64,000 nt of DNA. Source: Clavelina lepadiformis. Lineage: Eukaryota; Chordata; Ascidiacea; Aplousobranchia; Clavelinidae. Positions 31,822-56,632 of the stretch are shown piece by piece (within the stretch, counting starts at the first letter, position 1; each line of letters begins with the position of its first letter). Under the pieces are notes generated by a model, which saw nothing but the letters and a program-made list of their open reading frames with translations, was not told the origin of the DNA and did not search any database. The DNA lies in the NCBI RefSeq assembly GCF_947623445.1, contig NC_135243.1, forward strand, positions 4,156,501 to 4,220,500. Direction: 5' to 3'. Both the position numbers and the translations under genes were made by a program.

Positions 31822-32467
31822 CAATATAAGATAGGTTGTATTTGGGCCGCAAGTGTCTGCCGTTTCTGTCAAAACGTTTTCCAACAAGATAATGTCAATG
31901 AATCGACTATTTTGAAACTTCCCCCAAACCAAATGGAGATATCGAGATTGTTCGACAGCAAGTGGCATGTGATAAGAACGCGTTGGTTATTTATTATCTA
32001 CGGTTGACCACACAAAAATAATGGAGAGCACGAATGTATGACGGATGTTTTGAAAACCAGTCTAAGACGGTGCAAAAACAATCAACACAGCTCTAAAATG
32101 TTTGTCAAATAAATACTAGTTGGGTCAAATAGTCAAATAATAGCTTTCGCAATATAGTGGTTCTTTATAATTTCATATCAAATGTCACTTAATTCTTCAT
32201 TACGATCAACACTTGGTTGCGTTTATTACGTTGCCTTGTAACTTGTTGATTGTGTACAAGTCGACTCGATGCTCCACAGAAATAACAAACTTTCTCATTT
32301 AATCCTATGCTGTCCAGTTGACAATGTCAAGAACCTTGCAATGGTGGAAGCTTAAAACCAGGCTTTGAGTTTCCTAATTTTCCAATCAAACGCAGTATTA
32401 CAAAGTACAGGTAATAAAGAAATAATTCAAATAGACAAATAAACCACGGTCAACAGAAAAGGTTCTT

Positions 32468-32473
32468 TTTATT
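32468..32473 (-). terminator. Predicted poly(A) signal of array gene 1
   Basis: TTTATT on the plus strand is AATAAA on the minus strand, about 160 bp past the stop codon. The same hexamer and surroundings are conserved at 42708-42713 (unit 3) and 49902-49907 (unit 4), which supports a real 3' end. Confidence 0.55.
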
Positions 32474-32634
32474 TTCACTTTGAACAAAACAATTTAACGA
32501 ATTTAATTATAATACGAGGTTAAAAACGTGCTAAAAATATTTCGTGGAGACATATAATACACAATTTTTTAATTAAAAGGCAAGAATTTGTTAATCTTCA
32601 ATAAATATTTTTCAGAGGCAATTACAAGCATCCT

Positions 32635-35600
32635 TTAGTTTTTGCTTTCATCACCAGGTGGCGGACGTTTATAACAACACTCTTCGTGATTCTGAAGCCT
32701 GCAGGATTGGAAAAATCCCATCTGGCAATACGAGCATTTGTAAGGTAATTCCTCGTTGTGCAATGCGGAACAATGCGCCCGGTAATTCTTTTTAGTTCTG
32801 AAAGTAGACGGACAATCCTCGCATATGTAAGGTCTTTTTCCGGTGTGTATGAGTTCGTGTTGCTCTAAATCTCTCTCACATTTGAATTTCTTATCACAAA
32901 CCTTGCATTTGTGACGACATGCGAACGGATATGCTTGCATGTGACGCGTTAACCTCTTTAACCTTCGAAACCTTAATGGACACCCGTAACATTGGTAAAG
33001 CAGATCTCTGTGAAGTCTGTCGATGTGTTTATTTAAATACCTCTGTGTAGCAAACTTTTGAGGGCATTGTACACATGCGTATTTTTTCTCGACAACGTGG
33101 ATGTCTTTGTGTGCTGTTAGGTAGGATTTTTTCCTGAATCTTTTGTCGCAAATTTCACAAACATAGGGTCTCTCACCGTAGTGGGTTGCCATGTGATTGC
33201 CAAAAATCTCTGCATTGTTTGTAGAATAATCGCAATATTCGCACTGATGTTGTTTCGTGACAGTTTTCTCCACATGTTGATCCTTTTCATGTTGGTTTAA
33301 AGCCTCTGTGTTGGCGGAAACCTCTTCAAATTTGTCACAAGCTCTATCTTCGGTAGATGCTGAAAAAACAAAGTTTATATCCGTATATTTGAGTAAGATA
33401 ATAATATGATATTAGTATTGATTTTAAATGCGAATTTTAAATACAATTAAACCCTAATTGGCAGAAATCAACTTGTGCATATCCCATTACTCATCCATCA
33501 TGTCCCCAGCTGACTGCTTATCTTTCGAACCCGACTCGAGTGGTCTAATTGGAAGAAACGGTAACTTCCAAAAAGCTATGTTTGGTAATACCTCACATGC
33601 ACAATCGGTTGTTTTGTATTAACTTTAAATGCGACATGTATAAAATTGTATGGTAATGCTAAGTCAGTTTAATCACCTTAAACACATAAAATACACATCA
33701 TAAACTTACCCAAATCTTTGCCTTCAGCTTCCAGTTGTCTGTCTGTCTGTCCGATCGGTCTATCTGGTCTATCTGGTCTTTCCTGGGTCTCTTCTGACCT
33801 TTCAAGTTGATCAACAGATATTTGTTCATATCGAGCCAAGATTTCTGTTCCACTTGAAATCTTTTTCACAGCGAGATAATATAATTTACCCAGATGTTGA
33901 AAAGCCTCCGCATTTTGTTCGTCCAGAATTCTGAAAACGAGTTGGTTTTTACAGATTGGATTAACTTGGCAATCCAGTTTGTAATAAATAACATCAAAAA
34001 ACGAAGCAGATTTTGCTAAACTCTGAAAACATTTATCATCACAAACCATATCGTAACTTATATAATTAATCAAAAGTTGTTATTAAAATTTTCATGCAGA
34101 TTATTGTATGGCACGTAAAAAATGTAATTAAATTTCCAAAACTAATAAGTATACTTGTAGCCTACTTGACTGTTAAACCATTTCAGAATTGACTACAGTT
34201 AATACAAAAAATTTTTATTTCAATTTAGAAACAAATTGTTTGACATTTATTTGACTAACTACAATAGATTACCTGCCGCAAGGTAAAACTAAGACCAAAA
34301 AAGAGAAGACTTGCTAAAGAAAGTTTGGAAAAGCCAATAAATTTCTTTTTTAAACAAGGAACAAAGTATAAACAAAAAACTATACCTTGCACAATTGATG
34401 TATTTAAGCCAGTTACTTCTGGTTTTATTTGAACCATCGAGATAATGTGAGACTCTTCCGTTTTTAAAAATCTGCAACAACAATGGTGAGCTTTGTTCTG
34501 TATTAATTATATTATTATTGTAACCAGTACAATATTGCAGTTTTGAACTCGAATTGATTGAATCTTTACGTTCCGTTCACGAGCATTTATTAGCAGATCT
34601 TAAACTTTCTGATCGCGTGTTTAACGAGAAATAAAAGATTGATTTTTTCATGTTATGATTTTCTCAAACCGTTTCGGGTGATTAAGCAATACACTGCTAA
34701 AGACGTAGTTGCGGTGCAGTCTTTATCTATTTTTTACTTTTTTATTTGTGTATTCAATATTTACTATATACATCGTCATCTACGGAGGCGATGTTTTTCT
34801 ATGGTCACAGTAAAACAAGTTGAGTCATGGTAAATGATAAAAAATCCTATATTACCTCATAGCTGGATTTGAATGCCTACCAAAGGTTTATTACTCTATA
34901 GCGACACTTTACAAATAGGTTAAAGGCAAACTATACTTACACCAAAAAGCTTACAAAAGGCGGAATTTCTCCATAGAAAAGATTGGTAACAGCTTTTAAA
35001 TAAAGTAATCGTTGTGTAAAATATGAGATGTTAATGAGTTAACGAAGTAAAACTAGTTTAGCAATTTTGCAACAGCAGGGATACAAATGAAATAATACCA
35101 ATAGATATTAGCAATGGATTCCAAATCAAACAATAGAAACAGAAACAGTAAAGTGTAAGTAAAACTTATTTACAGGCGTTTTATTCATAAACACACAGTA
35201 CGTGTTTTTCAGTAGTTTGCAATCGAATATTTTCTTTTTACTTGCAATAGTACAACAAATAAAATAGAAGCAAAAAGGAGAAATTAAATAGATAAGTTAA
35301 CACTCACTTCTCGTACGAATCCATGTATTCTTGCCGAAGCCAATTTTTCGCTTTCATTTTGCAGAATCTTGACACCTTCAAATGGTCCAAAAACTGATTG
35401 TTCGGCAAAATCTTTTTCAGCCCAGGCCCCAAGTCTGTCAGATGAGATACCGGATGCTTTGATTGTTATGCCGGGTGGACATGTGCGTTGGTCACGGTCT
35501 AACGTGTTCTGTGATAACATTAATAACAATCTAATAAGTTATAACATATCATAACAGGAAAACAATTAAAACGGGTTAAGTGCTAACACAAGTGATCTAT

Positions 35601-36180
35601 TTTAAGGATATAGTCTACCATTCATCATTCTTGTGCTGTGACGGATGGCACAAAATTAAGCTCAAAATTTTTATCTTAAACTTGTTGATTAAAACAAAGC
35701 CAATGGATTACGAAATCTAATGCACCATCTGCCACTTTTCTTGGTTTTTGACAGCTTAAATTAGGAAACCTGACTTAATGGTTGTAGGATTAACCTTAGT
35801 CCAAAACAAGCTGATTTTTATCATTCTTAAAAATCTCTAAGTATAAGTTCCTGGTTTGTCAGATAGTTTAAGTAAATCTAACAAAGAAACATAAACAAAA
35901 CTTTAATTAGGAATTGCGCAAAATATGAAGTCTATTATTGGCAGTATTGGCACCTTCATAAAATAAAATATTTCGAACTGTCATGTTTTATAACTTCAAT
36001 ATTTTTAGCTTTCAATGCATTTTCGCTTATTTACTCCTAATCGGTTAATTGTTAAATTCAAAGTAAATAATTATCATTTATAACAGAATAAGATAAGTAT
36101 TAGGAGTAATTGAACCAAACAGGACTCACCCATCTAATGAGAGTATTCCTCACAAAGACTTTCTTCATTGTTTTGCTCAT
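32635..36180 (-). CDS. PR/SET-domain zinc-finger protein, array copy 1
   Basis: Five exons: 36130-36180, 35308-35508, 34386-34471, 33710-33930, 32635-33359. All have GT-AG borders and consistent phases (0,0,2,1), 1284 nt, 427 aa. Exons 2-4 rebuild a PR/SET domain: KASGISSDRLGAWAEKDF, FGPFEG, RSNWLKYINCAR joined across the splice to ILDEQNAEAFQH, GKLYY, and ISSGTEILARY. This is the PRDM9/PRDM-family fingerprint; such domains methylate histone H3 lysines or act as inactive relatives. A short acidic/TDRQ linker follows, then seven C2H2-type fingers on the last exon. Finger 4 reads HMQAYP, so its second zinc-ligand His is Tyr. Finger 7 ends with Cys in place of the last His. No KRAB or SSXRD domain is present, so it is not a full PRDM9 orthologue. 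Exon 4 is 9 nt longer than in the other copies (RPDRPD). Confidence 0.88.
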
Positions 36181-36971
36181 ATTCATAAGTTTGTATTTGT
36201 CGTGGTATACAAATACTAGAAACGGTCATTGGTTATTTTATAAATCAACAGAAATTATCTACAGAAAAGCATCAAACTTTTAAGTAACTCGGAAATCATA
36301 AACTGCCGAAAACGTAAATCATGTGAATTTCACAAATTTTTCTTTTTTTTTCTGGCAACGTGTGGTTAATCGTTTGAAAAGCAAGGCACGTAGTTTAAGG
36401 TGAGGAGTGTGTTTGGCTAATTACTTAGTTTGTTTTTTACAGTAATAAAATTACCAAAAATGAGTTAATCGAAATTGCCCAATGGAACTTGATAAAATCT
36501 TGCACAAGAATTAAGCATGCCTAAAAATAATGCATTAATTAGTATTGTTAGTTATTAGTTAGTAATTACCCTAAAACTAGTATATTTTGGAATATAACTT
36601 AAATAAGATATTTCCAGCTCTCGTTATATTGGCCCAAAATCAAAAGTATAGTTTTAGACCAGAAATATACATTTCACACTTTTTCATGCAAATTTTTGTC
36701 TACACATTCTGCAAACAATCTGGATTTTGAAAATCGCCAAAAACTCCCTAATAGGCAGAAATCAACTTATGCATATCCCATTACTCATCCATCATGTCCC
36801 CAGCTAACTGCTTATCTTTCGAACCCGACTCGAATGGTCTAATTGGAAAAAACGGTAACTTCCAAAGAGCTATGTTTGGTAATACCGCACATGCACAATC
36901 GGTTGTTTTGTATTAATTTTAAATGCGACATGTATAAAATTGTATGGTAATGCTAAGTCAGTTTCATCACT

Positions 36972-39431
36972 TTAAACACATAAAATACACATCATAAACT
37001 TACCCATTTCTTTGCATGCAGCTTCCAGTTGTCTGTCTGTCTGTCCGATCTGTATATCTGGTCTTTCCTGGGTCTCTTCTGACCTTTCAAGTTGTTCAGC
37101 ACATTGTCGATCATATCGAGCCAAGATTTCTGTTCCACTTGAAATCTTTTTCACAGCGAGATAATATAATTTACCCAGATGTTGAAAAGCTTCCACATTT
37201 TGTTCGTCAAGAATTCTAAAAACGAGTTGGTTTTTACAGATTGGATTAACTTGGCAATCCAGTTTGTAATAAATAACATCAAAAATGCAAGCTGATTTTG
37301 CTTAACTCTGAAAACATTTATCATCACAAACCATATCGTATATAATGAATCAAAAGTTGTTAATAAAATTTTAATGCAGATTATTGTATGGAACGTAAAA
37401 AATGTAATTAAAATTCCAAAACTAATAAGTATACTTGTAGCCTACTTGACTGTTAAACCATTTCAGAATTGACTAATACAAGAATTTTCATTTTAATTTA
37501 GAAACAAATCGTTTGACATTTATTTGACCAACTACAATAGATTACCTGCTGCAAGGTAAAACTAAGACCAAAAAAAGAAGACTTACTAAAGAAAGTTTGG
37601 AAAAGCCAATAAATTTTTTTTTTTTAAACAAGGAACAAAGTATAAACAAAAAACCATACCTTGCACAATTGATGTATTTAAGCCAGTTACTTCTGGTTTT
37701 ATTTGCACCATCGAGATAATGTGAGACTCTTCCGTTTTTAAAAATCTGCAACAACAATGGTGAGCTTTGTTCTATATTAATTATTATTGTAACCAGTAGG
37801 CTACAATATCGAAGTTCTGAACTCGGAGTGATTGAATCTTTACGTTCCGTTCACGAGCGTTTATTAGCAGATCTTAAACTTTCTGATCGCGTGTATAACG
37901 AGAAATAAAAGATTGATTTTTTCATGTTATGATTTTCTCAAACCGTTTCGGGTGATTAAGCATTACACCGCTACAGACGTAGTTGCGGTTCAGTCTTTAT
38001 CTATTTTTTACTTTTTTATTTGTGTATTCAATATTTTCTATTTACATCGTCATCTACAGAGGCGATTTTTTTCTATAGTCACTGTAAAACAAGTTAGAGC
38101 TATGATAAATGATAAAAGTCCTATGTTACTCCATAGCTGGATTTGAATGCCTACCAAAGGCTTCTTACTCTATAGCGACACTTTACAAATAGGTTAAATG
38201 CAAACTATACTTACACCAAAAAGCTTACAAAAGGCGGAATTTCACCATAGAAAAGATTTGTAACAGCTTTTAAGTAAAGAAATCTTTGTGTGAGATATGA
38301 GATGTTAATGAGTTAACGAAGTAAAATTAGTTTAGCAATTTTGCAACAGCAGGGATACAAATGAAATAATACCAATAGATATTAGCAATGGATTCCAAAT
38401 CAAACAATAGAAACACAAACAATATAGTTAAAGTAAAACTTATCTACAGGCGTTTTATCCATAAACACAGTGTACGTGTTTTTCAGTAGTTTGCAATCGA
38501 ATATTTTCTTTTAACATGCAATAGTACAACAAATAAAATAGAAGCAAAAAGGAGAAATTAAATAGATTAGTTAACACTCACTTCTCGTACGAATCCATGT
38601 ATTCTTGCCGAAGCCAATTTTTCGCTTTCATTTTGCAGAATCTTGACACCTTCAAATGGGCCAAAAACTGATTGTTCGGCAAAATCTTTTTCAGCCCAGG
38701 CCCCAAGTTTGTCAAATGATATACCGGATGCTTTGATTGTTATGCCGGGTGGACATGTGCGTCGGTCACGGTCTAACGTGTTCTGTGATGACATAAATAA
38801 CAATCTAATAATAATAACATATCATAACAGGAAAACAATAAAAACGGGGTAAGTGCTAAAACAAGTGATCTAATGTAAGGATATAGTCTACCGTTCATCA
38901 TTCTTGTGCTGTGACGGACGGCACAAAATTAAGCTCAAAATTTTTATCTCAAACTTGTTGATTAAAACAAAGCCAATGGATTACGAAATCTAATACACCA
39001 TCTGCCACTTTTCTTGGTTTTTGACAGATTAAATTAGGAAACCTGATTGAATAGTGGTAAGATTACACTTAGTCCAAAACAAGCTGATTTTTATCATTTC
39101 TAAAAATCTTTATGTATTTTAAGTAAATCTAACAAAGAAACATAAACAAAACTTTGATTAGGAATTGCGCAAAATATGAAATCTATTATTGGCAGTATTG
39201 GCACCTTCATAAAATAAAATATTTCGAACTGTCATCTTTTATAACTTCAATATTTTTAGCTTCCAATGCATTTTCGTTTTTTTACTCCTAATCGGTTAAT
39301 TGTTAAATTCAGAGTACATAATTATCATTTATAACAGAATAAGACAAGTATTAGGAGTAATTGAATGAAACAGGACTCACCCATCTTATGAGAGTATTTT
39401 TCACAAAGACTTTCGTCACTGTTTGGCTCAT
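36972..39431 (-). CDS. PR/SET-domain gene lacking its zinc-finger exon, array copy 2
   Basis: Exons 39381-39431, 38582-38782, 37660-37745 and 37004-37215 are all open, with intact splice sites and phases (0,0,2,1). They encode the complete PR domain (KASGISFDKLGAWAEKDF, FGPFEG, RSNWLKYINCAR + ILDEQNVEAFQH, GTEILARY). No zinc-finger exon lies before copy 1. Reading through the last donor gives KFMMCILCV and a stop at 36972, a PR-only protein of about 193 aa. The last exon ends in phase 1, and the only downstream exon entered in phase 1 is the copy-1 zinc-finger exon (33359). An in-frame chimeric transcript is therefore possible. The absence of disabling mutations argues against an old pseudogene. 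Whether it is transcribed is unknown. Confidence 0.68.
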
Positions 39432-40100
39432 ATTCATAAGTTTGTATTTGTCGTGGTATACAAATACTAGAAACGGTCATTGGTTATTTTATAATTCAAC
39501 AGAAATTATCTACAGAAAAGCATCAAGTTTTAAGTAACTCGTAAATCTTAATTGTAAAAGCAGATTTTGCATATATCGGATAACAGTATATACTGTTAGA
39601 GAATATCCTCTTTTTATATGTAAATTATTTTTGGCTACAACTAATCGAAATTTCAGATCCGATTTAAAATACTACATGTACTTGTGGCTAAAGCATTAAT
39701 ACAGGCTTTAAATCAACACAACAGCTAACGTACATGTTTGACTGACTAGAATATATAGCTTAAAATCAACTGTGAGCGTTATAAAGTTAGTGAGCTTGTA
39801 CCCTGCGTAGAAATCCTACGTATTTAAAGAATTTACCATTTAACAGACGAATTAGTAAACCAGCTGTGTTTCTGTTCAAGTTTAAACTTCGTGAGTATTG
39901 AAGAGAAATTTGTTGATGTGAGCAACAAACCCAACATGTAAGCTCAAGCATTTAACTAACTACAGTTACCGGTTACCTGGTCTGCAACAAACCTTGTCTA
40001 ACTAGAAGCTTGCGTCTTTCTTTGAGGAACCTGCTTGCTGATTACTTTGTTTGTTTTCTTTTTCTGCATTTGTGTTTTTGTTTTCTTTATTTACTTAATT

Positions 40101-40327: not shown

Positions 40328-40655
40328 CCATCAGTCTCAAGTCAAAAATAAGGACGACTAGAAAATGAAAGACGAATACCACCTTAGAAAGTGTACAACA
40401 GGAGAAAGCAACCAATGTTCCTAAAAAAAAAAAAAAAAAAAAAACAAGACACTATCTGCATGTTCATAATTTTGGTATCTCTTTGGTACAAAATAGAATC
40501 GTAAAGGTGACAAAATGCCCAAAATACGAACCTCTACCCTAAAAATAAGATGAAAATAAGGACATTTCTTAGAAAAAAGGACAAAAATATTTTCTAAGAC
40601 ACGGACCTTCAAAATAAGGACAAATCTTAGAAATAAGGACGGTATGGCAACCCTG
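40328..40655. mobile_element. Truncated hAT MITE in array unit 2
   Basis: Same family as 47453-47788 and nearly identical to it, including a run of about 20 A. The right terminus GGTATGGCAACCCTG and the following GGTATAAG flank (40656-40663) are intact. The left terminus and left flank were removed by the deletion ending near 40328. Confidence 0.75.
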
Positions 40656-42404
40656 GGTATAAGCCTATATTTTGGACCAGAAATATGCATTTCACACATT
40701 TTCATGCTAATTTTTGTCTACACATTCTGCAAACAACCTGGATCTTTGAAAATCGCCAAAAACTAAGATAATTTCCAGGCTAATAAACAAAACCAACCAA
40801 ATTGCTCTATGATTGGTTCACGTAAACTTTGAAAGCTCTACGTAATAGTCTAACAAAATGAGAGAAATCATATTGTTTCAACCAAGCATCTTCTAAGGTA
40901 ACTTTTAAAATCCAGATCAAAAAAACAAATACAAAACTGTACGGCAGTTCTCAATAGAACCCATGTCATAATCAACATGCTTTTGGGTTATTGTCATGTA
41001 GTTCAGTCTCCTGTTATTTTTACAAAAGTACGTGTTGAAAATTATCAATGTACTTGACACATTTCTTTAATGTTGAGCGAAGCTTAATCGGCCCGTGCTG
41101 TGATTCACATATTGTGCAATTCCTACGCTTGAATCTTCATAAGTTTCATATAATCGTTAATAACTCTTCACAAAAATCTTAATATCACCTTTAATGGTTT
41201 TGTTTGCTGTGACTTGTGACTTTGTGCTGTGTCTTCCTTTGACTTTACAGTTCGAATTGTCACCTCTTAACGCTACAAAATAAGTCAGAATCATTATTAG
41301 AGAGTCACATTTATCGACTCTTCACAGGCGCAACTTGCCTAAACCTGACCTGTAAGTTTGGAAAACCTTTTGCAGTTTTAGTATCAATATTGTTGTTATT
41401 AGTGGATCTGAGCCTTGAAGCTTGGAATCATATTATTCCATGTCTCATCTGACCATGCATGGCCTAGGTATTAGGCAGAAGATTCCAAGATAAGTGACCT
41501 ACGACTCGTCTTGTTGAAATGAAGTTACAAAACCATCTGTCACATCGAGCAAAAGAATTTTTGTTTGTTTTATATGGAACATGTTACACATTAATTCATG
41601 CATACACACGTATTTTGTTATGGTAAGTAACGAATCAGCCAGCTTAAAACACAATTCCACTATTTTATTAATGGGCAAATGCGACTTTGTTGATAAAAAA
41701 AATATGGTAAACATTCGATTACACACGAAAACTTAACCACGATCCACAAAATATTGAAACTTACATTTAAAATCACTTTCTATCAAACCATTCCAAAACA
41801 AGTAATTGTAACAAGATTTAATGTAATTGTGATAAAAACTGTTGCTGGCCACTCACTAAATCCATCTGTTGAATACAAAAATTTCTGTTAATAATAACAG
41901 TAACAATATAAGATAGGTTGTATTTCAGCCGCAAGTGTCTGCCGTTTCTGTCAAAACGTTTTCCAACGAGACATAATGTCGAACAATGAATCGATTAATT
42001 TGAAACTTCCCCCAAAGCAAACGGAGAGATCGACATTGTTCGACTGCAAGTGGCATGTGATAAGAACACGTTGGTTATTTGTTATCTACCGTTGACCACA
42101 CAAAAATAATGGAGAGCACGAATGTATGACGGATGTTTTGAAAACCAGTCTAAGACGGTGCAAAAACAATCAACACAGCTCTAAAATGTTTGTCAAATAA
42201 ATACTAGTTGGGTTTGTTTTCGTAATAGAGTGTTTGGTGTTCTTTATCATTTCATATCATATGTCATTTCTTCATTGCGCTCAACACTTAGCGTTTATCA
42301 CGTTGAATTGTAACTTGTTGATTGTGTACAAGTCGACTCGATGCTCCACAGAAACAGCAACCCTTCCATTTAATCCTATGTTGTCCGGTAGACGATGTCA
42401 TGAA

Positions 42405-42534
42405 CAATGTTCCCTTTAGTTTTTCACGAGTCTTGAGCAAACACGCTAACCGGTCCCTTGGACTACTTGTGCGCGGAGATCGTGTCAGCAGTGCGCATTT
42501 GCGCACGCGCGCAGTTTAGAGGGAACAGTGCATG
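42405..42534. mobile_element. hAT-like MITE with 8-bp duplication, internally deleted copy (unit 3)
   Basis: The terminus CAATGTTCCCTTTAG at the left pairs with CTGTTCCCTCTAAA from the right. GTCATGAA is duplicated at 42397-42404 and 42535-42542. Unit 1 has the uninterrupted site (about 32325-32335, gtcaagaac). The GC-rich core gtgcgcatttgcgcacgcgc is itself palindromic. This copy is 130 bp; its sister in unit 4 is 188 bp. Confidence 0.78.
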
Positions 42535-42707
42535 GTCATGAATATTGCAATGATGGAAGCTCGCAAGCTGGGCCAGTCAGCACACAAAGGTGGTGAAGGC
42601 TTCTGTTTACATAATTTTCCCATCAAACGCAGTTTTAGCAATAAGAAGCAGCAATAAAGAAACAATTTACATAGACACGCAACTACAGTCATAAAAAAAA
42701 GTTTCTT

Positions 42708-42713
42708 TTTATT
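42708..42713 (-). terminator. Predicted poly(A) signal of array gene 3
   Basis: AATAAA on the minus strand about 160 bp past the stop codon, conserved in units 1 and 4. Confidence 0.55.
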
Positions 42714-42873: not shown

Positions 42874-45800
42874 TTAGTTTTTGCTTTCATCACCAGGTGG
42901 CCGACGTTTACCACAATACTTTTCGTGTATCTGAAGCCTGGCAGTTTGGAAAAACCCCCTTTGGCAATTCGGGCATTTGTGAGGTAATGTCTCGTTGTGC
43001 AATGCAGAGCAATGCACTCGATAATTGCCTTTAGTTTTAAAAGCAGCTGAACAATCCTCGCATATGTAAGGTCTTTCGCCGGTGTGTATGCGTTCGTGTT
43101 GCTCTAAATCTCTCTCACATTTGAATTTCTTATCGCAAGCCTTGCACTTGTGACGACATGCGCTCGGATGTGCTTGCATATGACGCGTAAAATCATTAAA
43201 GTTTTGAAACCTTGACCGACAAACCAAACATTGGTAAAACAGGAGATTTCTGTGAAGTCTCTCAACATGTTTTTTTAGATAAATCCGTGTAGCAAACTTT
43301 TTAGAGCATTGTTCACATGTGTATTTTTTCTCGCTGACGTGGATTTTCTCATGTGTGGTAAGTTTGCTTTTTATGGGGAATCTCTTGTCACAAGTTTCAC
43401 AAACATAAGGCGTCTCACCAGTATGAATCGTCATGTGATTGCGAAGAACTCCTGCATTGTTTGTAGAATAATCGCAATATTCGCACTGATGTTGTGTCGT
43501 AACAATTTTGTCCACATGTTGATCCTTTTCATGTCTGTTCAAAGCCTCTATATTGGCAGAAACCTCTTCAAATTCGTCACAAGCTCTATCTTCGGTAGAT
43601 GCTGAAAATGCAAAGGTTATATCCGTATACATGATTAAGATAATAATATGTTAGCATTGATTTTTAAATGCGAATTTTAAATACAATTAAACCCTAAATA
43701 ACTGAAGTCAACTTCTGCATACGTAATTATTAATTACTCATCCATCATGTCCCCAGCTAACTGCTTATCTTTCGAACCCGAATCGAGTGGTCTAATTGGA
43801 AGAAACGGTAACTTCCAAAGAGCTATGTTTGGTAATACCGCACATGCACAATCGGTTGTTTTGTACTAACTTTAAATTAGACATATATAAAATTGTATGA
43901 TTATATTTCAAAAGTTTCCGTAACCACCAAATACGTTGTTTACTGAAGTTAATTAGCTCTCGTTAATGTTTACCAGGGAAAAATTTCATCTTAGTAATGC
44001 TAAGTCAGTTGCATCACCTTAAATACATTAAAAACACATCATAAACTTACCCATTTTTTTGCATTCAGCTTCCAGCTGTCTATCCCTCGGTCCGGTCTGT
44101 CGGTCTTGTCTTTCCTGGGTCTCTTCTGACCTTTCAAGTTGTTCAGCGTATTGTTTTTCATATCGAGCCAAGATTTCTGTTCCACATGAAATCTTCTTCA
44201 CAGCGAGATAATATAATTTATCCCGATGTTGAAAAGCCTCCGCATTTTGTTCGTCGAGATTTCTGAAAACGAGTTGGTTTTTACAGATTGGATTAACTTG
44301 GCAATCCAGTTTGTAATAAATAACATCAAGCAAGGAAGCAGATTTTGCAAACTCTGAAAATACTTATTATCACAAACCATATCGTATATAGTCAAAAGTT
44401 GTTATTATAATATTAATGCAGATTATTGTAGGCCTATTGCACGTAAAAAATGTAATTAAATTTCCAAAACTAACAAATATTATTGTAGCCTACTTGACTG
44501 TTAAACCACTTCAGAATTGACAAAAAACAAGACTTTTTATTTTTATCTCGAAACAAATTGTTAAACATTTATTTGACCAACCACAATAGATTAACTGTTG
44601 CAAGGTAAAAGAAATACAAAATAAAGACTTACTAAAGGAAGCTTGGAAATACAAAGTATAAACAAAAAACCATACCTTGCACAATTGATGTATCTAAGCC
44701 AGTTACTTCTGATTGTATATGAACCATCAACGTAATGTGAGACTTTTCCATTTTTAAAAATCTGCAACAATCAATAATAAGCTTTGTTCTGTATTAATTG
44801 TTGTTGTAACCAGTTCAATATTGCAGTTTTGAACTCGAATTGATTGAATCTTTACGTTCCGTGTAAGAGCGTATATTGGCAGATCTATTACTTTCTAATC
44901 ACGTGTTTAACGAGAAATAAACGGATTGATTTTTTTCATGTTATGATTTTCTCAAACCTTTTCGGATTATTAAGCATTAAACCGCTAAAGACGTAGTGGA
45001 GGTTCACTCTCTCATCTGTATATTCAATACTTACTATATACCTCGTCATCTACAGAGGCGATGTTTTTCTATAGTCACAGTAAAACAAGTTGAGTTATGA
45101 TGAATGATAAAAATCCTATGTTACTCCATAGCTGGAATTAAATGGCTACCAAAGGCTTCTTACTCTATAGCGACACTTTACAAATAGGTTTAATACAAAC
45201 CACTTTCACCAAAAAGCTCACAAAAGGGCGGAATTTCTCCATAGAAAAGATTTGTAACAGCTTTTAAATAAAGTAATCTTTGTGTGAAATATGAGATGTT
45301 AATGAGTTAACGAAGTAAAATTGGTTTAGCAACTTTGCAACAGCAGGGATACAAATGAAATGATACCAATGGAAATTACCAATGGATACCATAGGAACAA
45401 TAGAAACACAAGGATTTAGCGTAAGTAAAACTTATCTATAGGATTTTTAGCCATAAACACACTGTACGTGTTTTTCTGTAGTTTGCAATTGGTCAATTCC
45501 TTCTTGCATGCAATAGTATAACAATAATTAAAATAAAACACAAAGAAGGGACTAGAGAAACTACATAGATAAGTTAACACTCACTTCTCGTACGAATCCA
45601 TGTTTTACTGCCGAAGACATTGCATAAATGAAAGCCTCGCTTTCATTTTGCATAATCTTGACACCTTCAAATGGGCCAAAAACTGATTGTTCGGCAAAAT
45701 CTTTTTCAGCCCAGGCCCCAAGTTTGTCAGATGAGATACCGGATGCTTTGATTGTTATGCCGGGTGGACATGTGCGTCGGTCACGGCCTAACGTGTTCTG

Positions 45801-46384
45801 CGATGACATAAGCATTCCAATAACAAAACGTCATATCATAGTATAGGAAAACTATAAAAACGAGTGCTAACACAAGTGATCTATTTTAAAGATATAGTCT
45901 ACCATTCATCATTCTTGTGCTGCGACGGACGGCACAAAATTATGCTTTAATTTTTATTTTAAATTCGCAGATTGAAACATTAACTTTTCAGCCAATGGAT
46001 TATGAAATCTAATATCTGCCTCATTTCTTGCTTTATGACAGTTTAAATTAGGAAATCTGATTGAATTGATTGTCTGATACTTTATATATGTTCAACAAAG
46101 AAACGTAACAGAACTTTAATTAGGAATTGCGAAAATTATGAAGTCTAGTATGGGCACCTTTACAAAATAAAATATTTCAAACTTTCATGTTTTATAATTT
46201 CAATATTGTTAGCTTCGAATGCATTTTCGCTTATTTACTCCTAATTGGTTAATGGATATTTTGAAAGTACATAGTAATCATTTATACCAGAGTAAGACAA
46301 GTATTAGGAAAAATTGAATCAAACAAAACTCACCCATCTTGTGAGAGTATTCTTCACAAAGACTTTCTTCATTTTTTGGCTCAT
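42874..46384 (-). CDS. PR/SET-domain zinc-finger protein, array copy 3
   Basis: Exons 46334-46384, 45585-45797, 44676-44761, 44051-44262, 42874-43601 total 1290 nt, 429 aa, all in frame. The PR domain reads KASGISSDKLGAWAEKDF, FGPFEG, RSNWLRYINCARNLDEQN and ISCGTEILARY. Exon 2 is 12 nt longer than in copies 1 and 2 (SEAFIYAMSSAVKH), so copies 3 and 4 form one subfamily. Seven fingers follow; the fourth keeps its zinc ligands (HMQAHP), unlike copy 1. Finger 5 ends in the consensus linker HTGERP. The last finger is C2HC-like (HEKYC). Probably a nuclear DNA-binding protein. Methyltransferase activity is inferred from family membership only. Confidence 0.9.
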
Positions 46385-47055
46385 ATTCATAAGTTTGTAT
46401 TTGTCGTGGTATACAAATACTAGAAATGGTCATTGGTTATTTTATAAATCAACAGAAATTATCTACAGAAAAGCATCAAGTTTTTAAGTAACTCGTAAAT
46501 CTTAATTGTAAAAGCAGATTTTGCATATATCGGATAACAGTACTTATACTGTTAGAGAATATCCTCTTTTTATATGTAAATTATTTTTGGCTACAAATAA
46601 TCGAAATTTCAGATCCGATTTAAAATACTACATGTACTTGCGGCTCACACAATAATTAAAGTTTTTAGATCAGCACAACAGCTAACGTACATGCTTGACT
46701 GACTAGAATATATAGCTTAAAATCAACTGTGAGCGTTATAAAGTTAGTGAGCTTATACCCTGCGTAGAAATTCTACGTATTTAAAGAATTTACCATTTAA
46801 CAGACGAATTAGTAAACCAGCTGTGTTTCTGTTCAAGTTTAAACGTCGTGAGTATTGAAGAGAAATTTGTTGATGTGCGCAACAAGACAACAGATAAACT
46901 GAAGCATTTAACTAACTATAGTTACCGGTTACCTGGTCTGCAACAAACCTTGTCTGACTAGAAACTTGCGTCTTTCTTTGAGGAACCTGCTTGCTGATTA
47001 CTTGGTTGTTTTCTTTTTCTGCATTTGTGTTTTTTTTTTCTTTATTTACTTAATT

Positions 47056-47198
47056 ATGACGTCGCAAGTGCTTGCAGAAGGTGGCGCCTTGCTTAATTGC
47101 TTTGCCGAAAACGTAAATCATGTGAATTTCACAAATTTTGCTTTTGTTTTCTGGCAGCGCGTGGTTAATCGTTTGAAAAGCAAGGCACGTAGTTTAAG
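47056..47198 (+). other. Candidate divergent exon upstream of array copy 3
   Basis: Open from ATG 47056 (MTSQVLAEGGALLNCF) to a GT donor at 47199 (AAG|gtgagg). It is about 670 bp upstream of the PR-gene start codon and on the opposite strand. Most residues match the unit-2 equivalent; the final splice phase differs by one base. No known domain. Confidence 0.3.
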
Positions 47199-47452
47199 GT
47201 GAGGTGTGTGTTTGGCTAATTACTTAGTTTGTTCTTTTCAGCAATAAAATTACCAAAAATGCAATTAATCGAAATTGCCCAATGGAACTTGATAAAATTT
47301 TGCACAAGAATTAAGCATGCCTAAAATTAGTATATTAATTAGTATTGTTAGTTATTAGTTAGTAATTAGCTTACAACTAGTATATTTTGGAATATAACTT
47401 AAATAAGATATTTCTCGCTCCAGTTATATTGGCCCAAAATCAAAGGTATAAG

Positions 47453-47788
47453 CAGGGTTGCCATCAGTCTCAAGTCAAAAATAAGGACGACTAGAAAATG
47501 AAAAACGAATACCACCTTAAAAAGTGTACAACAGGAGAAAGCAACCAATGTTCCTAAAAAAAAAAAAAAAAAAAAAACAAGACACTATCTGCATGTTCAT
47601 AATTTTGGTATCTCTTTGGTACAAAATAGAATCGTAAAGGTGACAAAATGCCCAAAATACGAACCTCTGCTCTAAAAATAAGACGAAAATAAGAACATTT
47701 CTTAGAAAAAAGGACAAAAATATTTTCTAAGACACGGACCTTCAAAATAAGGACAAATCTTAGAAATAAGGACGGTATGGCAACCCTG
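47453..47788. mobile_element. hAT MITE with 8-bp duplication and empty sister sites (unit 3)
   Basis: Termini CAGGGTTGCCAT and ATGGCAACCCTG are flanked by GGTATAAG at 47445-47452 and 47789-47796. Unit 4 has the uninserted site near 54630-54640 (gaaggtataggcctac), and unit 1 has it near 36648 (aaaagtatagtttt). The element is 336 bp, contains a run of about 20 A, and has several 'aataaggac' repeats. It has no coding capacity. Confidence 0.9.
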
Positions 47789-49540
47789 GGTATAAGCCTA
47801 TATTTTGGACCAGAAATATGCATTTCACACATTTTCATGCTAATTTTTGTCTACACATTCTGCAAACAACCTGGATCTTTGAAAATCGCCCAAAACTAAG
47901 ATAATTTCCAGGCTAATAAACAAAACCAACCAAATTGCTCTATGATTGGTTCACGTAAACTTTGAAAGCTCTACGTAATAGTCTAACAAAATGAGAGAAA
48001 TCATATTGTTTCAACCAAGCATCTTCTAAGGTAACTTTTAAAATCCAGATCAAAAAAACAAATACAAAACTGTACGGCAGTTCTCAATAGAACCCATGTC
48101 ATAATCAACATGCTTTTGGGTTATTGTCATGTAGTTCAGTCTCCTGTTATTTTTACAAAAGTACGTGTTGAAAATTATCAATGTACTTGACACATTTCTT
48201 TAATGTTGAGCGAAGCTTAATCGGCCCGTGCTGTGATTCACATATTGTGCAATTCCTACGCTTGAATCTTCATAAGTTTCATATAATCGTTAATAACTCT
48301 TCACAAAAATCTTAATATCACCTTTAATGGTTTTGTTTGCTGTGACTTGTGACTTTGTGCTGTGACTTCGTTTGACTTTACAGTTCGAATTGTCACCTCT
48401 TAACGCTACAAAATAAGTCAGAATCATTATTAGAGAGTCACATTTATCGACTCTTCACAAGCGCAACTTGCCTAAACCTGACCTGTAAGTTTGGAAAACC
48501 TTTTGCAGTTTTAGTATCAATATTGTTGTTATTAGTGGATCTGAGCCTTGAAGCTTGGAATCATATTATTTCATGTCTCATCTGACCATGCATGGCCTAG
48601 GTATTAGGCAGAAGATTCCAAGATAAGTGACCTACGACTCGTCTTGTTGAAATGAAGTTACAAAACCATCTGTCACATCGAGCAAAAGAATTTTTGTTTG
48701 TTTTATATGGAACATGTTACACATTAATTCATGCATACACACGTATTTTGTTATGGTAAGTAACGAATCAGCCAGCTTAAAACACAATTCCACTATTTTA
48801 TTAATGGGCAAATGCGACTTTGTTGATAAAAAAAATATGGTAAACATTCGATTACACACGAAAACTTAACCACGATCCACAAAATATTAAAACTTACATT
48901 TAATTTCACTTTCTATCAAACCATTCCAAAACAAGTAATTGTAACAAGATTTAATGTAATTGTGATAAAAACTGTTGCTGGCCACTCACTAAACCCATCT
49001 GTTGAATACAAAAATTTATGTTAATAATAACAGTAACAATATAAGATAGGTTGTATTTCGGCCGCAAGTGTCTGCCGATTCTGTCAAAACGTTTTCCAAC
49101 GAGACATAATGTCGAACAATGAATCGATTAATTTGAAACTTCCACCAAACCAAATGGAGATATCGAGATTGTTCGACTGCAGGTGGCATGTGATAAGAAC
49201 ACGTTGGTTATTTGTTATCTACCGTTGACCACACAAAAATAATGGAGAGCACGACTGTATGACGGATGTTTTGAAAACCAGTCTAAGACGGTGCAAAAAC
49301 AATCAACACAGCTCTAAAATGTTTGTCAAATAAATACTAGTTGGGTTTCTTTTCGTAATAGAGTGGTTGGTGTTCTTTATCATTTCATATCATATGTCAT
49401 TTCTTCATTGCGCTCATCACTTAGTTGCGTTTATCACGTTGAATTGTAACTTGTTGATTGTGTACAAGTCGACACGATGCTCCACAGAAACAGCAACCCT
49501 TCCATTTAATCCTATGTTGTCCGGTAGACGATGTCATGAA

Positions 49541-49728
49541 CAATGTTCCCTTTAGTTTTTCACGAGTCTTGAGCAAACACGCTACCCGGTCCCTTGGACT
49601 ACCGTGAGCAACATCAGACATCCGCACTGTGGACATGCCAGCATCGCATCGATTTTTTTCTTGTGCGCGGAGATCGTGTCAGCAGTGCGCATTTGCGCAC
49701 GCGCACAGTTTAGGGGAAACTGTGCATG
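49541..49728. mobile_element. hAT-like MITE with 8-bp duplication, longer copy (unit 4)
   Basis: Same insertion as 42405-42534, with GTCATGAA at 49533-49540 and 49729-49736. It keeps roughly 60 internal bases (ccgtgagcaacatcagacat onward) that are missing from the unit-3 copy. Confidence 0.78.
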
Positions 49729-49901
49729 GTCATGAATATTGCAATGATGGAAGCTCGCAAGCTGGGCCAGTCAGCACACAAAGGTGGTGAAGGCTTCTGT
49801 TTACATAATTTTCCCATCAAACGCAGTTTTAGCAATAAGAAGCAGCAATAAAGAAACAATTTACATAGACACGCAACTACAGTCATAAAAAAAAGTTTCT
49901 T

Positions 49902-49907
49902 TTTATT
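49902..49907 (-). terminator. Predicted poly(A) signal of array gene 4
   Basis: AATAAA on the minus strand about 160 bp past the stop codon, conserved in units 1 and 3. Confidence 0.55.
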
Positions 49908-50067
49908 TTCACTTTGAACAAAACAATTTAACGAATTTAATTATAATACGAGGTTAAAAACGTGTTAAAGTATTTCTCGTGGAGACATATAATACACAAT
50001 TTTTTCATTAAAAGGAAAGAATGTTAATCTTCAAATAAATTTTTTAAAACGCAATTACAAAATTCCT

Positions 50068-53000
50068 TTAGTTTTTGCTTTCATCACCAGGTGGCCGACG
50101 TTTACCACAATACTTTTCGTGTATCTGAAGCCTGGCAATTTGGAAAAACCCCCTTTGGCAATTCGGGCATTTGTGAGGTAATGTCTCGTTGTGCAATGCA
50201 GAGCAATGCACTCGATAATCGCCTTTAGTTTTAAAAGCAGCTGAACAATCCTCGCATATGTAAGGTCTTTCTCCGGTGTGTATGCGTTCGTGTTGCTCTA
50301 AATCTCTCTCACATTTGAATTTCTTATCACAAATCTTGCACTTGTGACGACATGCGCCCGGATGTGCTTGCATATGACGCGTAAAATCATTAAAGTTTTG
50401 AAACCTTGACCGACAAACCAAACACTGGTAAAGGAGCAGATTTCTGTGAAGTCTCTCAACATGTTTTTTTAGATAACTCTGTGTAGCAAACTTTTTAGAG
50501 CATTGTACACATGCGTATTTTTTCTCGCTGACGTGGATTTTCTCATGTGTGGTAAGTTTGCTTTTTATGGGGAATCGCTTGTCACAAGTTTCACAAACAT
50601 AAGGCGTCTCACCAGTATGAATCGTCATGTGATTGCGAAGAACTCCTGCATTGTTTGTAGAATAATCGCAATATTCGCACTGATGTTGTGTCGTAACAAT
50701 TTTGTCCACATGTTGATCCTTTTCATGTCTGTTCAAAGCCTCTATGTTGGCAGAAACCTCTTCAAATTCGTCACAAGCTTGATCTTCGGTAGATGCTGAA
50801 AAAACAAAGGTTATATCCGTATACATGATTAAGATAATAATATGTTAGCATTGATTTTTAAATGCGAATTTTAAATACAATTAAACCCTAAATAACTGAA
50901 GTCAACTTCTGCATACGTAATTAGTAATTACTCATCCATGTCGCCAGCTAACTGCTTATCTTTTGAACCCGACTCGAGTGGTCTAATTGGAAGAAACGGT
51001 AACTTCCAAAAAGCTATGTTTGGTAATACCGCACATGCACAATCGGTTGTTTTGTACTAACTTTAAATTAGACATATATAAAATCGTATGATTATATTTC
51101 AAAAGTTTCCGTAACCACCAAATACGTTGTTTACTGAAGTTAATTAGCTCTCGTTAATGTTTACCAGGGAAAAATTTCATCTTAGTGATGCTAAGTCAGT
51201 TGCATCACCTTAAATACATTAAAAACACATCATAAACTTACCCATTTTTTTGCATTCAGCTTCCAGCTGTCTATCCCTCGGTCCGATCTGTCGGTCTTGT
51301 CTTTCCTGGGTCTCTTCTGACCTTTCAAGTTGTTCAGCGTATTGTTTTTCATATCGAGCCAAGATTTCTGTTCCACATGAAATCTTCTTCACAGCGAGAT
51401 AATATAATTTATCCCGATGTTGAAAAGCCTCCGCATTTTGTTCGTCGAGATTTCTAAAAACGAGTTGATTTTTACAGATTGGATTAACTTGGCAATCCAG
51501 TTTGTAATAAATAACATCAAGCAAGCAAGCAGATTTTGCTTAACTCTGAAAACATTTATTATCACAAACCATATCGTATATAGTCAAAAGTTGTTATTAT
51601 AATATTAGTGCAGATTATTGTAGGCCTATGGCACGTAAAAAATGTAATTAAAATTCCAAAACTAACAAATATTATTGTAGCCTACTTGACTGTTAAACCA
51701 CTTCAGAATTGACAAAAAACAAGACTTTTTATTTTTATCTCGAAACAAATCGTTAAACATTTATTTGACCAACCACAATAGATTAACTGTTGCAAGGTAA
51801 AAGAAATACAAAATAAAGACTTACTAAAGGAAGCTTGGAAATACAAAGTATAAACAAAAAACCATACCTTGCACAATTGATGTATCTAAGCCAGTTACTT
51901 CTGTTTGTATATGAACCATCAACGTAATGTGAGACTTTTCCATTTTTAAAAATCTGCAACAATCAATAATAAGCTTTGTTCTGTATTAATTGTTGTTGTA
52001 ACCAGTTCAATATTGCAGTTTTGAACTCGAATTGGCTGAATCTTTACGTTCCGTGTACGAGCGTATATTGGCAGATCTATAACTTTCTAATCGTGTGTTT
52101 AACGAGAAATAAACGGATTGATTTTTTTCATGTTATGATTTTCTCAAACCTTTTCGGATTATTAAGCATTAAACCGCTAAAGACGTAGTGGAGGTTCACT
52201 CTCTTATCTGTGTATCGAATATTTACGATATACATCGTCATCTACAGAGGCGATGTTTTTCTATAGTCACAGTAAAACAAGTTGAGTTATGATAAATGAT
52301 AAAAAATCCTATGTTACTCCATAGCTGGAATTAAATGGCTACCAAAGGCTTCTTACTTTATAGCGACACTTTACAAATAGATTTAATACAAACCACTTTC
52401 ACCAAAAAGCTCACAAAAGGGCGGAATTTCTCCATAGAAAAGATTTGTAACAGCTTTTAAATAAAGTAATCTTTGTGTGAAATATGAGATGTTAATGAGT
52501 TAACGAAGTAAAATTGGTTTAGTAACTTTGCAACGGCAGGGATACAAATGAAATGATACCAATGGATACCATAGGAACAATAGAAACACAAGGATTTAGC
52601 GTAAGTAAAACTTATCTATAGGATTTTTAGCCATAAACACACTGTACGTGTTTTTCTGTAGTTTGCAATTGGTCAATTTCTTCTTGCATGCAATAGTATA
52701 ACAATAATTAAAATAGAACACAAAGAAGGGACTAGAGAAACTACATAGATTAGTTAACACTCACTTCTCGTACGAATCCATGTTTTACTTCCGAAGACAT
52801 TGCATGAATGAAAGCCTCGCTTTCATTTTGCAGAATCTTTGCACCTTCAAATGGGCCAAAAACGGATTGTTCGGCAAAATCTTTTTCAGCCCAGGCCCCA
52901 AGTTTGTCAGATGAGATACCGGATGCTTTGATTGTTATGCCGGGTGGACATGTGCGTCGGTCACGGTCTAACGTGTTCTGCGATGACATAAGCATTCCAA

Positions 53001-53562
53001 TAACAAAACGTCATATCATAGTAGGAAAACTATAAAAACGAGTGCTAACACAAGTGATCTATTTTAAGGATATAGTCTACCATTCATCATTCTTGTGCTG
53101 CGACGGACGGCACAAAATTATGCTTAAATTTTTATTTTAAATTCGCAGATTGAAACATTAACTTTTCAGCCAATGGATTATGAAATCTAATATCTGCCTC
53201 ATTTCTTGCTTTATGACAGTTTAAATTAGGAAATCTGATTGAATTGATTGTCTGATACTTCATATATGTTCAACAAAGAAACGTAAAAGAACTTTAATTA
53301 GGAATTGCGTAAATTATGAAGTCTAGTATGGGCACCTTTACAAAATAAAACATTTCAAACTTTCATGTTTTACAATTTCAATATTGTTAGCTTCGAATGC
53401 ATTTTCGCTTATTTACTCCTAATCGGTTAATTGTTAAATTCAAAGTAAAGAATTATCATTTATATCAGAGTAAGACAAGTATTAGGAAAAATTGAATCAA
53501 ACAAAACTCACCCATCTTGTGAGAGTATTCTTCACAAAGACTTTCTTCATTTTTTGGCTCAT
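50068..53562 (-). CDS. PR/SET-domain zinc-finger protein, array copy 4
   Basis: Exons 53512-53562, 52765-52977, 51868-51953, 51242-51453, 50068-50795 total 1290 nt, 429 aa, in frame throughout. Architecture as in copy 3: a complete PR/SET domain across exons 2-4, then seven zinc fingers on the last exon. Within the 252 codons of the last-exon ORF the two proteins differ at 11 residues. Among these are helix position 2 of finger 3 (ATQSYL versus ATRIYL) and position 3 of finger 6 (KTKGDY versus KTKGNY), both DNA-contact positions by the standard finger model. Finger 3 of this copy (YACVQC, ATQ) is closer to copy 1 than to copy 3, suggesting exchange between copies. Confidence 0.9.
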
Positions 53563-54243
53563 ATTCATAAGTTTGTATTTGTCGTGGTCTGCAAATACTA
53601 AAAGTGGTCAATGGTCATTGGTCATTCTATAAATCAACAGAAATTATCTGTAGAAAAAGCATCAAGTTTTTAAGTAACTCGTAAATCTTAACTGTAAAAG
53701 CAGATTTTGCATATATCGGATATAAGTATATACTGTTAGAGAATATCCTCTTTTTATATGTAAATTATTTTTGGCTACAACTAATCGAAATTTCAGATCC
53801 GATTTAAAATACTACATGTACTTGTGGCTCACACAATAATTAAAGTTTTTAGATTAGCACAACAGCTAACGTACATGCTTGACTGACTAGAACATATAGC
53901 TTAAAATCAACTGTGAACGTTATAAAGTTAGTGAGCTTGTACCCTGCGTAGTAATTCTACGTATTTAAAGAATTTACCAGTTAACAGACGAATTAGTAAA
54001 CCAGCTGTGTTTCTGTTCAAGTTTAAACGTCGTGGGTATTGAAGAGAAATTTGTTGATGTGAGCAACAAGCCAACAGATAAACTCAAGCATTTAACTAAC
54101 TATAGTTACCGGTTACCTGGTCTGCAACAAACCTTGTCTGACTAGAAACTTGCGTCTTTCTTTGAGGAACCTGCTTGCTGATTACTTTGGTTGTTTTCTA
54201 TTTCTGCATTTGTGTTTTTTTTTCTTTCTTTATTTACTTAATT

Positions 54244-54385
54244 ATGACGTCGCAAGTGCTTGCAGAAGGTGGCGCTTGCTTAATTGCTTTGCCGAAAACG
54301 TAAATCATGTGAATTACACAAATTTTGCTTTTGTTTTCTGGCAGCGCGTGGTTAATCGTTTGAAAAGCAAGGCACGTAGTTTAAG
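54244..54385 (+). pseudogene. Frameshifted divergent exon candidate, unit 4
   Basis: Matches the open segment at 47056-47198, but a one-base deletion (ggcgcttgc in place of ggcgccttgc) breaks the ATG-initiated frame after about ten codons. If the unit-2 and unit-3 versions are real exons, this one is dead. Confidence 0.3.
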
Positions 54386-55463
54386 GTGAGGAGTGTGTTT
54401 GGCTAATTACTTAGTTTGTTCTTTTCAGCAATAAAATTACCAAAAATGCAATTAATCGAAATTGCCCAATGGAACTTGATAAAATTTTGCACAAGAATTA
54501 AGCATGCCTAAAACCAGTATATTAATTAGTATTGTTAGTTATTAGTTAGTAATTAGCCTAAAACTAGTATATTTTGGAATATAACTTAAATAAGATATTT
54601 CTAGCTCCCGTTATATTGGCCCAAAATCGAAGGTATAGGCCTACATTTTGGACCAGAAATATGCATTTCACACATTTTCATGCTAATTTTTGTCTACACA
54701 TTCTGCAAACAATCTGGATCTTTGAAAATCGCCCAAAACTAAGATAATTTCCAGGCTAATAAACAAAACCAACCAAATTGCTCTATGATTGGTTCACGTA
54801 AACTTTGAAAGCTCTACGTAATAGTCTAACAAAATGAGAGAAATCATATTGTTTCAACCAAGCATCTTCTAAGGTAACTTTTAAAATCCAGATCAAAAAA
54901 ACAAATACAAAACTGTACCGCAGTTCTCAATAGAACTCATGTCATAATCAACATGCTTTTGGGTTATTGTCATGTAGTTCAGACTCCTGTTATTTTTATA
55001 AAAGTACGTGTTGAAAATTATCAATGTACTTGACATATTTCTTTATTGTTGAGCAAAGCTTATTCGGCCCGTGCAGTGATTCACATATTGTGCAATTCCT
55101 ACGCTTGAATCTTCATAAATTTCATATAATCGTTAATAACTCTTCACAAAAATCTTAATATCACCTTTAATGTTTTTTTTGCTGTGACTTGTGACTTTGT
55201 GTTGTGTCTTCCTTTGACTTTATATTTCAAATTGTCACCTCTTAACGCTACAAAATAAGTCAGAATCATCATTTGAGAGTCAAATTTATCGACTCTTCAC
55301 AGGCGCAACTTGCCTAAGCCTGACCTGCAAGTTTGGATATCAATATTGTTGTTATTAGTGGATCTGAGCCTTGAAGCTTGGAATCATATTATTTCATGTC
55401 TCGTCTGACCATGAATGGCCTAGGTATTAGGCAGAAGATTTCAAGAAAAATGACCTACCATTC

Positions 55464-56216
55464 GGGTTCCATGACATATGACCGCGGGAAAATGACCGCG
55501 AACAAACTCACCGGGGACAACTGAACGTGACGTAAATTGACCGCGAACAAGCTGACCGTGATGTAAATTGACCGCGAACAAACTAACCGGGAACAGACTT
55601 ACTGGAATGAAAAATGACCGGGAGGTAAATTGACCGTGCAAGAGCTGAATTATTGTGTTTAAGTTGATCTCCAACTCTTTTTGCAATTTACAATTATTAG
55701 TATAACCATAACCAAGACTTAAAACTAGGGGAGTCCTGACGTACAGCTTCAATCTGACAATTTACTTAACTAAAGTGTCCATTGTTATTGCAATGAGTCC
55801 ATTGTTACTACATGAGATAGGCTACAACGCATTGTTTCATAATCTCATCAAACAACTCGTCTAGACCGGGAAAATGCATGTAACAATAGGAAATCTATGA
55901 ATAAAGGTGAAAAACCCGTAGGGTCACCCTACACCCTACAAGGGGCCAAAAAACTCTACGAGTGGCAACCTTGACTGCAATACACATACTAAATTGGATA
56001 GTGACTAGATAGCGACTAGATAGTGAATTAGAATTTTGACCTTTTCACGGCCAATTCGGCCGGTTAATTTGATCGCCGGCCAATTTATCGACGGTTAATT
56101 TCATCGCCGGCCAATTTACGTCACGGTTAATTTCATCGCCGGTCAATTTGTTGCCAGTCAGTTGTCCACTATCAGTTGTCGCCGGTGAATTTGTTCACGG
56201 TCACTTCACGTGATCC
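55464..56216. mobile_element. Mutator-like (long inverted repeat) insertion in unit 4
   Basis: It interrupts a sequence that is continuous in units 2 and 3 (gacctacgactcgtc near 41498 and 48630). The flanks are ctaccattc (55455-55463) and ctacgattc (56217-56225), a 9-bp duplication with one mismatch. Both ends are long imperfect inverted arrays of short modules such as 'aattgaccgcgaacaa' and its complement 'ttcatcgccggccaattt'. A 9-bp duplication with long terminal inverted repeats fits Mutator-like elements. No transposase is present in the 753 bp. Confidence 0.68.
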
Positions 56217-56632
56217 CTACGATTCGTCTGGTTGAAATGAAGTTACAAAACCATATGTTACATTGAGCAAAATAATTTTTGTTTGTTTTATATGGAACAT
56301 GTTACACATTAATTCATGCATACACACGTATTTTGTTATGGTATGTAACGAATCAACCAGCCGAAAACACAATTCCACTATTTTATTAATAGGCGAATAC
56401 GACTTTGTTGATAAAAAAAAATATGGTAAACATTCGATTACACACGAAAACTTAACCACGATCCACAAAATATTAAACCTTACATTTAATTTCACTTTCT
56501 ACCAAACCATTTGAATACAAAATTACAAAGAAGGCAGACTTAATGTAATTATGATAAAAACATGTTGCTGACCAATCACTAAAATTCCATCTGTTGAATA
56601 CAAAAATATCTGTTAATAATAACAGTAACAAA

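Follow-up and report, generated by a model that had tools for sequence, protein, structure and literature searches.

Whether the tandemly arranged zinc-finger genes on chromosome 4 of the ascidian Clavelina lepadiformis form a lineage of their own among PR-domain genes, or descend from PRDM9, is the question raised by the stretch of 64,000 nucleotides analysed here (the window; contig NC_135243.1, positions 4,156,501 to 4,220,500 of the forward strand), which is part of assembly kaClaLepa1.1. In mammals, PRDM9 marks the sites of chromosome recombination. The four units of the array are probably truncated in-paralogues of the tunicate PRDM9, which would be regulators if anything, while the likely working PRDM9 is a full-length neighbour, designated G5, whose exons matching the protein P0003 lie at 4278255-4289512 of chromosome 4 (C4).

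Based on self-BLAST, the array spans positions 31819-56631 of the window, and its units are read from the minus strand. Unit 1 (31819..36301, 4.5 kb) carries a complete gene of the truncated PRDM9 type, with a coding sequence (CDS) of 1290 nt whose frame has one terminal stop; unit 2 (about 36304 to about 40309, ~4.0 kb) contains PR exons only; units 3 (40328..47450; NCBI LOC143452095) and 4 (47461..54637), both of ~7.1 kb, each have a CDS of 1296 nt and are 97-98% identical to one another. An initial annotation, made from the letters alone, had described four units of about 7.1 kb each, of which the number stands and the length holds for units 3 and 4 only. It had also ascribed the sharp limits of the array, placed at the same sequence on both sides, to unequal crossing-over, and the edges bear this out: the left edge (31819) pairs with 41901/49034 and the right edge (56631) with 41906/49039, so both ends pair with one point inside the units, as fits unequal crossing-over. 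The right-hand end is formed by a remnant of a further repeat copy (54632..56631, minus strand), which ends at the sequence where unit 1 begins.

Units 1, 3 and 4 each display five exons with GT-AG introns and a reading frame that is open up to its terminal stop, and the protein encoded by unit 3 agrees with P0002 (LOC143452095) at every residue; in unit 2, to which a five-exon gene had likewise been assigned, exons A-D are present and the finger exon is absent. Exon A, taken from its ATG, is located at 36130..36186 in unit 1 (with an in-phase acceptor just upstream), 39381..39437 in unit 2, 46334..46390 in unit 3 and 53512..53568 in unit 4, and the gene model has 19 residues ahead of exon B. 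The PR/SET domain starts in exon B (35308..35508, 38582..38782, 45585..45797 and 52765..52977 in units 1 to 4), continues through exon C (34386..34471, 37660..37745, 44676..44761 and 51868..51953) and ends, followed by a linker, in exon D (33710..33930, 37004..37215, 44051..44262 and 51242..51453), while the zinc-finger exon occupies 32635..33359 in unit 1, 42874..43601 in unit 3 and 50068..50795 in unit 4. The Pfam matches of the window gene (PRDM2_PR, E=4e-30; zf-C2H2, 2e-19) exclude chance for both domains. A strict C2H2 pattern counts six fingers in units 3 and 4 and five in unit 1, in which one finger has lost its final histidine; the seven fingers originally given for three units are reached only by including the last, C2HC-type finger.

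The array forms the left-hand end of a cluster that spans 250 kb and holds 14 PR loci, comprising the four window units (G1-G4), G5 at 4287101, and nine more (G7-G15, the number G6 being unused) located on both strands between 4375 and 4439 kb; the cluster was read over C4 4156501-4440500, which contains no N, the array stretch included. All three PR exons are found at 13 of the 14 loci, G13 being broken, and 65 kb separate the end of the array from the first exon of G5 on its right. When the G5 PR domain was searched against the whole genome, all 40 matches at E 0.01 fell between 4190316 and 4438208 of C4, in agreement with the local lineage expansion that had been annotated. The profile PF21549 gave 25 matches in the genome, 24 of them in the cluster; the sole match outside it (C2:19020900-19021058) has one stop in the matched frame and possibly belongs to another Prdm gene. 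The cluster further contains at least seven finger-only exons, with internal stops in three, and in a fourth at 4372852, and a knuckle exon is retained at G8, G9, G11 and G14.

The PR/SET domain itself points to PRDM9, as initially proposed. Ranked against PDB, a window copy scores 73.8 bits with PRDM9 and 61.1 with the next family, PRDM14, and the G5 domain 112.9 with PRDM9 and 81.3 with the next; Foldseek, applied to a predicted model of unit 3 (mean predicted local distance difference test score, pLDDT, of 75, mostly >80 in the PR part apart from two ten-residue blocks near 60), retrieved PRDM9 6nm4 as best match (E 3.4e-16). In a tree of 37 PR domains, in which the only other families are PRDM14 and PRDM4, teleost PRDM9-beta has no row and several deep forks are poorly supported, a single group (support 99/97) unites the 14 Clavelina rows (13 loci and P0003) with the PRDM9-like protein of Phallusia mammillata (P0004); G1-G4 are grouped within it at 100/100 on a long stem (0.77). 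Because the 13 PR domains of the cluster group together, full-length G5 included, the window genes are best read as in-paralogues of the tunicate PRDM9. The domains thus fall within a PRDM9-like group and not outside the PRDM/SET family, and the earlier view of a separate lineage that is not PRDM9 is not upheld. The window copies and G5 also split their PR domain between exons B, C and D in the same way.

The catalytic tyrosines named in PMC5519329 (Y276, Y341 and Y357) distinguish the members of the cluster. All three are kept in G5 and in Phallusia, whereas the four window units share the substitution Y276F and keep Y341 and Y357. Y341F is found in G8, G9, G11, G12 and G14, and all three tyrosines are changed in G7, G10 and G15. 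The four window units also display W356R, a number counted from the tyrosine positions of that paper.

The full-length organisation of G5 comprises a KRAB-like part, an SSXRD-like part, a knuckle, the PR/SET domain and the fingers. In two-profile comparisons with vertebrate PRDM9, the N-terminal part of the G5 protein (P0003) matched the KRAB domain with its acidic motif (hhalign, 96.6%, E 6e-10), and the whole N-terminus, including the SSXRD-like and knuckle parts, matched at E 6e-30. This comparison was used in place of six-frame genome searches with KRAB (PF01352) and SSXRD (PF09514), which gave no match but were equally silent on control genomes and are not counted as evidence. The Phallusia protein P0004 shows 69% identity to the G5 PR domain and the same layout as P0003, and it matches the PRDM4 knuckle model weakly (E 0.03); it corresponds to G5 and not to the truncated copies in the window. 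At the window loci, neither KRAB, SSXRD nor the knuckle was found, since P0003 and P0004 match there only from the PR exon onward (E<1), and the lack of KRAB and SSXRD noted earlier is thereby corroborated. Exon A resembles a knuckle exon weakly, with a splice position in common and a TLxxW end that hint at homology: in DNA alignments of exon A of the four units with the knuckle exon of G8, 0, 0, 3 and 2 of 300 shuffles scored as high, compared with 48 to 259 of 300 for G5, G9 and G14.

The fingers of G5 differ between two assemblies mainly where they would touch DNA. Taking positions -1, 2, 3 and 6 as contact residues and counting +1/+5 apart, G5 and P0003 differ at 15 of 28 contacts, 4 of 14 +1/+5 positions and 5 of 150 others (p=3e-9), and outside the fingers at no more than 10 of 410 residues, some of these at exon edges. 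Unit 1 served as internal control. Its counterpart P0001, a predicted protein of 624 residues with two PR domains which, like P0003, appears to come from one contig of another Clavelina assembly, shows no difference at 20 contacts and 10 +1/+5 positions, one at 132 others, and 5 in the 429 residues of the whole protein. Contact enrichment reached p<0.001 in 8 of the 12 pairs, which are non-independent, and was non-significant in the three within-window pairs (p 0.06, 0.18 and 0.33) and in unit 1 versus P0001. Between G5 and the finger-only exon at 4296355, nonsynonymous (dN) and synonymous (dS) divergence amounted to 0.50 and 0.16 at contacts and to 0.05 and 0.11 in the framework, with 0.12 in the 3' flank. 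According to Oliver et al. 2009, tunicate PRDM9 fingers, those of Ciona included, show neither concerted evolution nor positive selection; the present data agree with that study on the former and, for G5, differ from it on the latter, and the genes compared in 2009 may not correspond.

Among the window copies, the dN/dS ratio (w) of the PR domain is 1.68 for units 1-2, 0.94 for units 3-4 and 0.53-0.78 in the other four pairs, while the finger framework has w 0.31-0.36 in all three pairs, which fits a PR domain under relaxed or changed selection with a finger fold that is retained. Units 3 and 4 differ at contacts by two amino-acid changes and no silent change. Silent divergence of the finger exon between units 1 and 3 is 0.44, against 0.12 in introns; an import of the unit 1 fingers was considered and dropped, as sliding windows show single noncoding stretches that are equally diverged.

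These data suggest a model in which unequal crossing-over multiplied truncated PRDM9 copies in the window. By analogy with teleost PRDM9-beta, such copies may bind DNA with an array of rather stable fingers, and any activity of theirs would be regulatory; judged from PRDM9-beta and from the truncated copies of salmonids they would not place meiotic breaks, and a role for them in placing recombination is unlikely. G5, in turn, is predicted to bind DNA and to methylate histone H3 at K4/K36, and would thereby choose recombination sites, the turnover of its contact residues being in line with the Red Queen model.

Several observations weigh against this reading. Up to E 0.1, P0003 has no match to the Pfam models of KRAB or SSXRD. 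The comparison with G5 assumes that P0003 is its allele and comes from an independent assembly, and P0003 may instead be a paralogue; between assemblies, moreover, unit 1 is the only window unit with comparable fingers. An exon-wise search, weak and liable to miss such a gene, revealed none that combines a CW with a PWWP domain, as ZCWPW1 does (3 CW and 9 PWWP matches, on different chromosomes); that ZCWPW1 was not recognised weakens, but does not refute, the choice of recombination sites by G5. The fingers of the G5 array are not homogenised, with a mean finger-to-finger DNA identity of 0.44 and a maximum of 0.59 (the mean in unit 3 being 0.41), and its contact diversity of only 0.26 is as in window units (0.25 and 0.27). 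Finally, contact w is 2.8-2.9 for unit 1 versus units 3/4 (20 codons), so the window fingers diverged after duplication.

A more specific proposal, which we regard as possible but doubtful, is that G5, as the working tunicate PRDM9, renews its specificity within the species via in-register exchange with finger exons of the cluster, the window array being a branch that was retired in the course of the same birth and death of genes. The fingers of G5 keep their own frameworks, which would argue for diversity by in-register exchange and not by a finger minisatellite, and the donors would be finger-only exons downstream of G5, two of which lie on its strand with acceptors of the right phase. In a donor test, 12 of 20 helix differences of P0003 occurred in register in three finger-only exons, versus 6.3 off register (none of 5000 derangements as high), as did 10 of 20 G5 residues versus 6.0 (p 0.026). 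As proof of gene conversion this test was set aside, common ancestry explaining in-register matches equally well. The finger-only exons at 4296355 and 4303883 are downstream of G5 on the same strand and have acceptors in the phase of its exon D, the second with an internal stop; they could be alternative last exons of G5 or exchange donors.

The window copies might alternatively be decaying, functionless duplicates that are open only through their youth. The high PR w, the missing finger exon of unit 2 and the changes Y276F and W356R in every copy would be expected of decay, but complete frames and splice sites in units 1, 3 and 4, the constrained finger framework and the near identity of unit 1 to its counterpart in the second assembly make it unlikely. 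It is about as improbable that the PR-finger family has become a cluster of repressors aimed at mobile elements, in the manner of tetrapod KRAB finger genes: the birth and death of genes within one cluster (at least seven finger-only exons beside the 14 PR loci), the contact-site enrichment in most of the non-independent pairs and the very large finger-gene clusters elsewhere in the genome suit such a role, whereas the stability of the unit 1 fingers between assemblies does not. That recombination is still directed by the window copies, as several PRDM9-like proteins whose fingers differ and which divide the task among them, has in its favour the two catalytic tyrosines kept out of three and the contact w of unit 1; we consider it quite improbable in view of the N-terminal domains not found at these loci, the non-significant contact enrichment in the window, the unchanged contacts of unit 1, and the swordtails, which, as PMC5519329 reports, behave like knockouts with a copy that is without KRAB/SSXRD and has two changed catalytic residues.

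Two further explanations concern the origin of the array. An assembly artefact, in which one locus was falsely duplicated, has nothing found in its favour and is scarcely credible given a sequence of 117x HiFi coverage with Hi-C and a quality value (QV) of 67.4 (PMC10884593), a divergence of 2.5-12% between the introns of the units, and P0001, which joins unit 2 to unit 1 at exon A (window 36130-39437) and so places the two units in the same order in the second assembly; the HiFi assembly, the check that the initial annotation had called for, shows an array and not a single locus. A PR lineage separate from PRDM9 is very improbable as well: the copies are without KRAB or SSXRD and the G1-G4 stem is long in a tree with few other families and weak deep forks, but their grouping with G5 and the Phallusia protein at 99/97 and the common exon division of the PR domain argue for a PRDM9 origin.

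The window copies can be compared with several known systems. With vertebrate PRDM9 (Meisetz) they share a PR/SET domain of PRDM9 type with a finger exon after it, and G5 in addition the KRAB-like, SSXRD-like and knuckle parts, the three catalytic tyrosines and the turnover of contact residues; the window copies differ by their missing N-terminal domains and by Y276F, and, in contrast to mammalian PRDM9, the fingers of the G5 and window arrays (41-44% DNA identity) are not near-identical repeats. Teleost PRDM9-beta, as described in PMC5519329, resembles the window copies in being without KRAB/SSXRD and in having a substituted catalytic tyrosine. A likeness in slow finger evolution is less clear: between the Clavelina assemblies the fingers of unit 1 show no sign of fast turnover, but the contact w of this unit versus units 3/4 is 2.8-2.9. 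The same source links rapid finger evolution to the presence of KRAB and SSXRD. The substitutions differ, being Y341F and Y357P in swordtail beta and Y276F here, and the truncation in the window is probably independent of that in teleosts, because the window copies group with the tunicate PRDM9. In the salmonids, for which PMC11703093 reports 6 to 14 PRDM9 paralogues per genome, a full-length PRDM9-alpha copy is likewise accompanied by several truncated ones, although these derive partly from whole-genome duplications and not, as in Clavelina, from a local cluster within 250 kb. The initial annotation had called a local expansion of PR genes unusual, which the salmonid numbers qualify. Among the open-licence papers listed, most of them judged by title and opening of the abstract, none was seen to deal with PRDM9 in Clavelina or with arrays of PR genes in tunicates.

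Recombination directed by PRDM9 has been established in some mammals and is reported for salmonids (PMC11703093). If true, the turnover of G5 contact sites would extend the Red Queen system to the sister group of the vertebrates, in an organism with a compact genome and a long-read assembly, and its truncated neighbours, as natural variants without single parts, would help to tell the necessary parts of PRDM9 from the dispensable ones.

Elsewhere in the genome, large clusters of C2H2 finger genes were observed on C1, C3 (0.9-2.1 Mb) and C7 (18.4-18.6 Mb), with 142 matches at E 1e-30 among 150 scored candidates of 1107. Within the window, the right-hand remnant of the array is split by an insert (55459..56215) that carries short direct repeats and, close to its ends, imperfect inverted ones, and which is probably a non-autonomous DNA transposon. 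The array is flanked on its left by a single open frame of 745 residues (28581-30815) that is plexin-like and has Sema and TIG domains, and on its right by an exon for a C-type lectin domain (57540-57836, minus strand).

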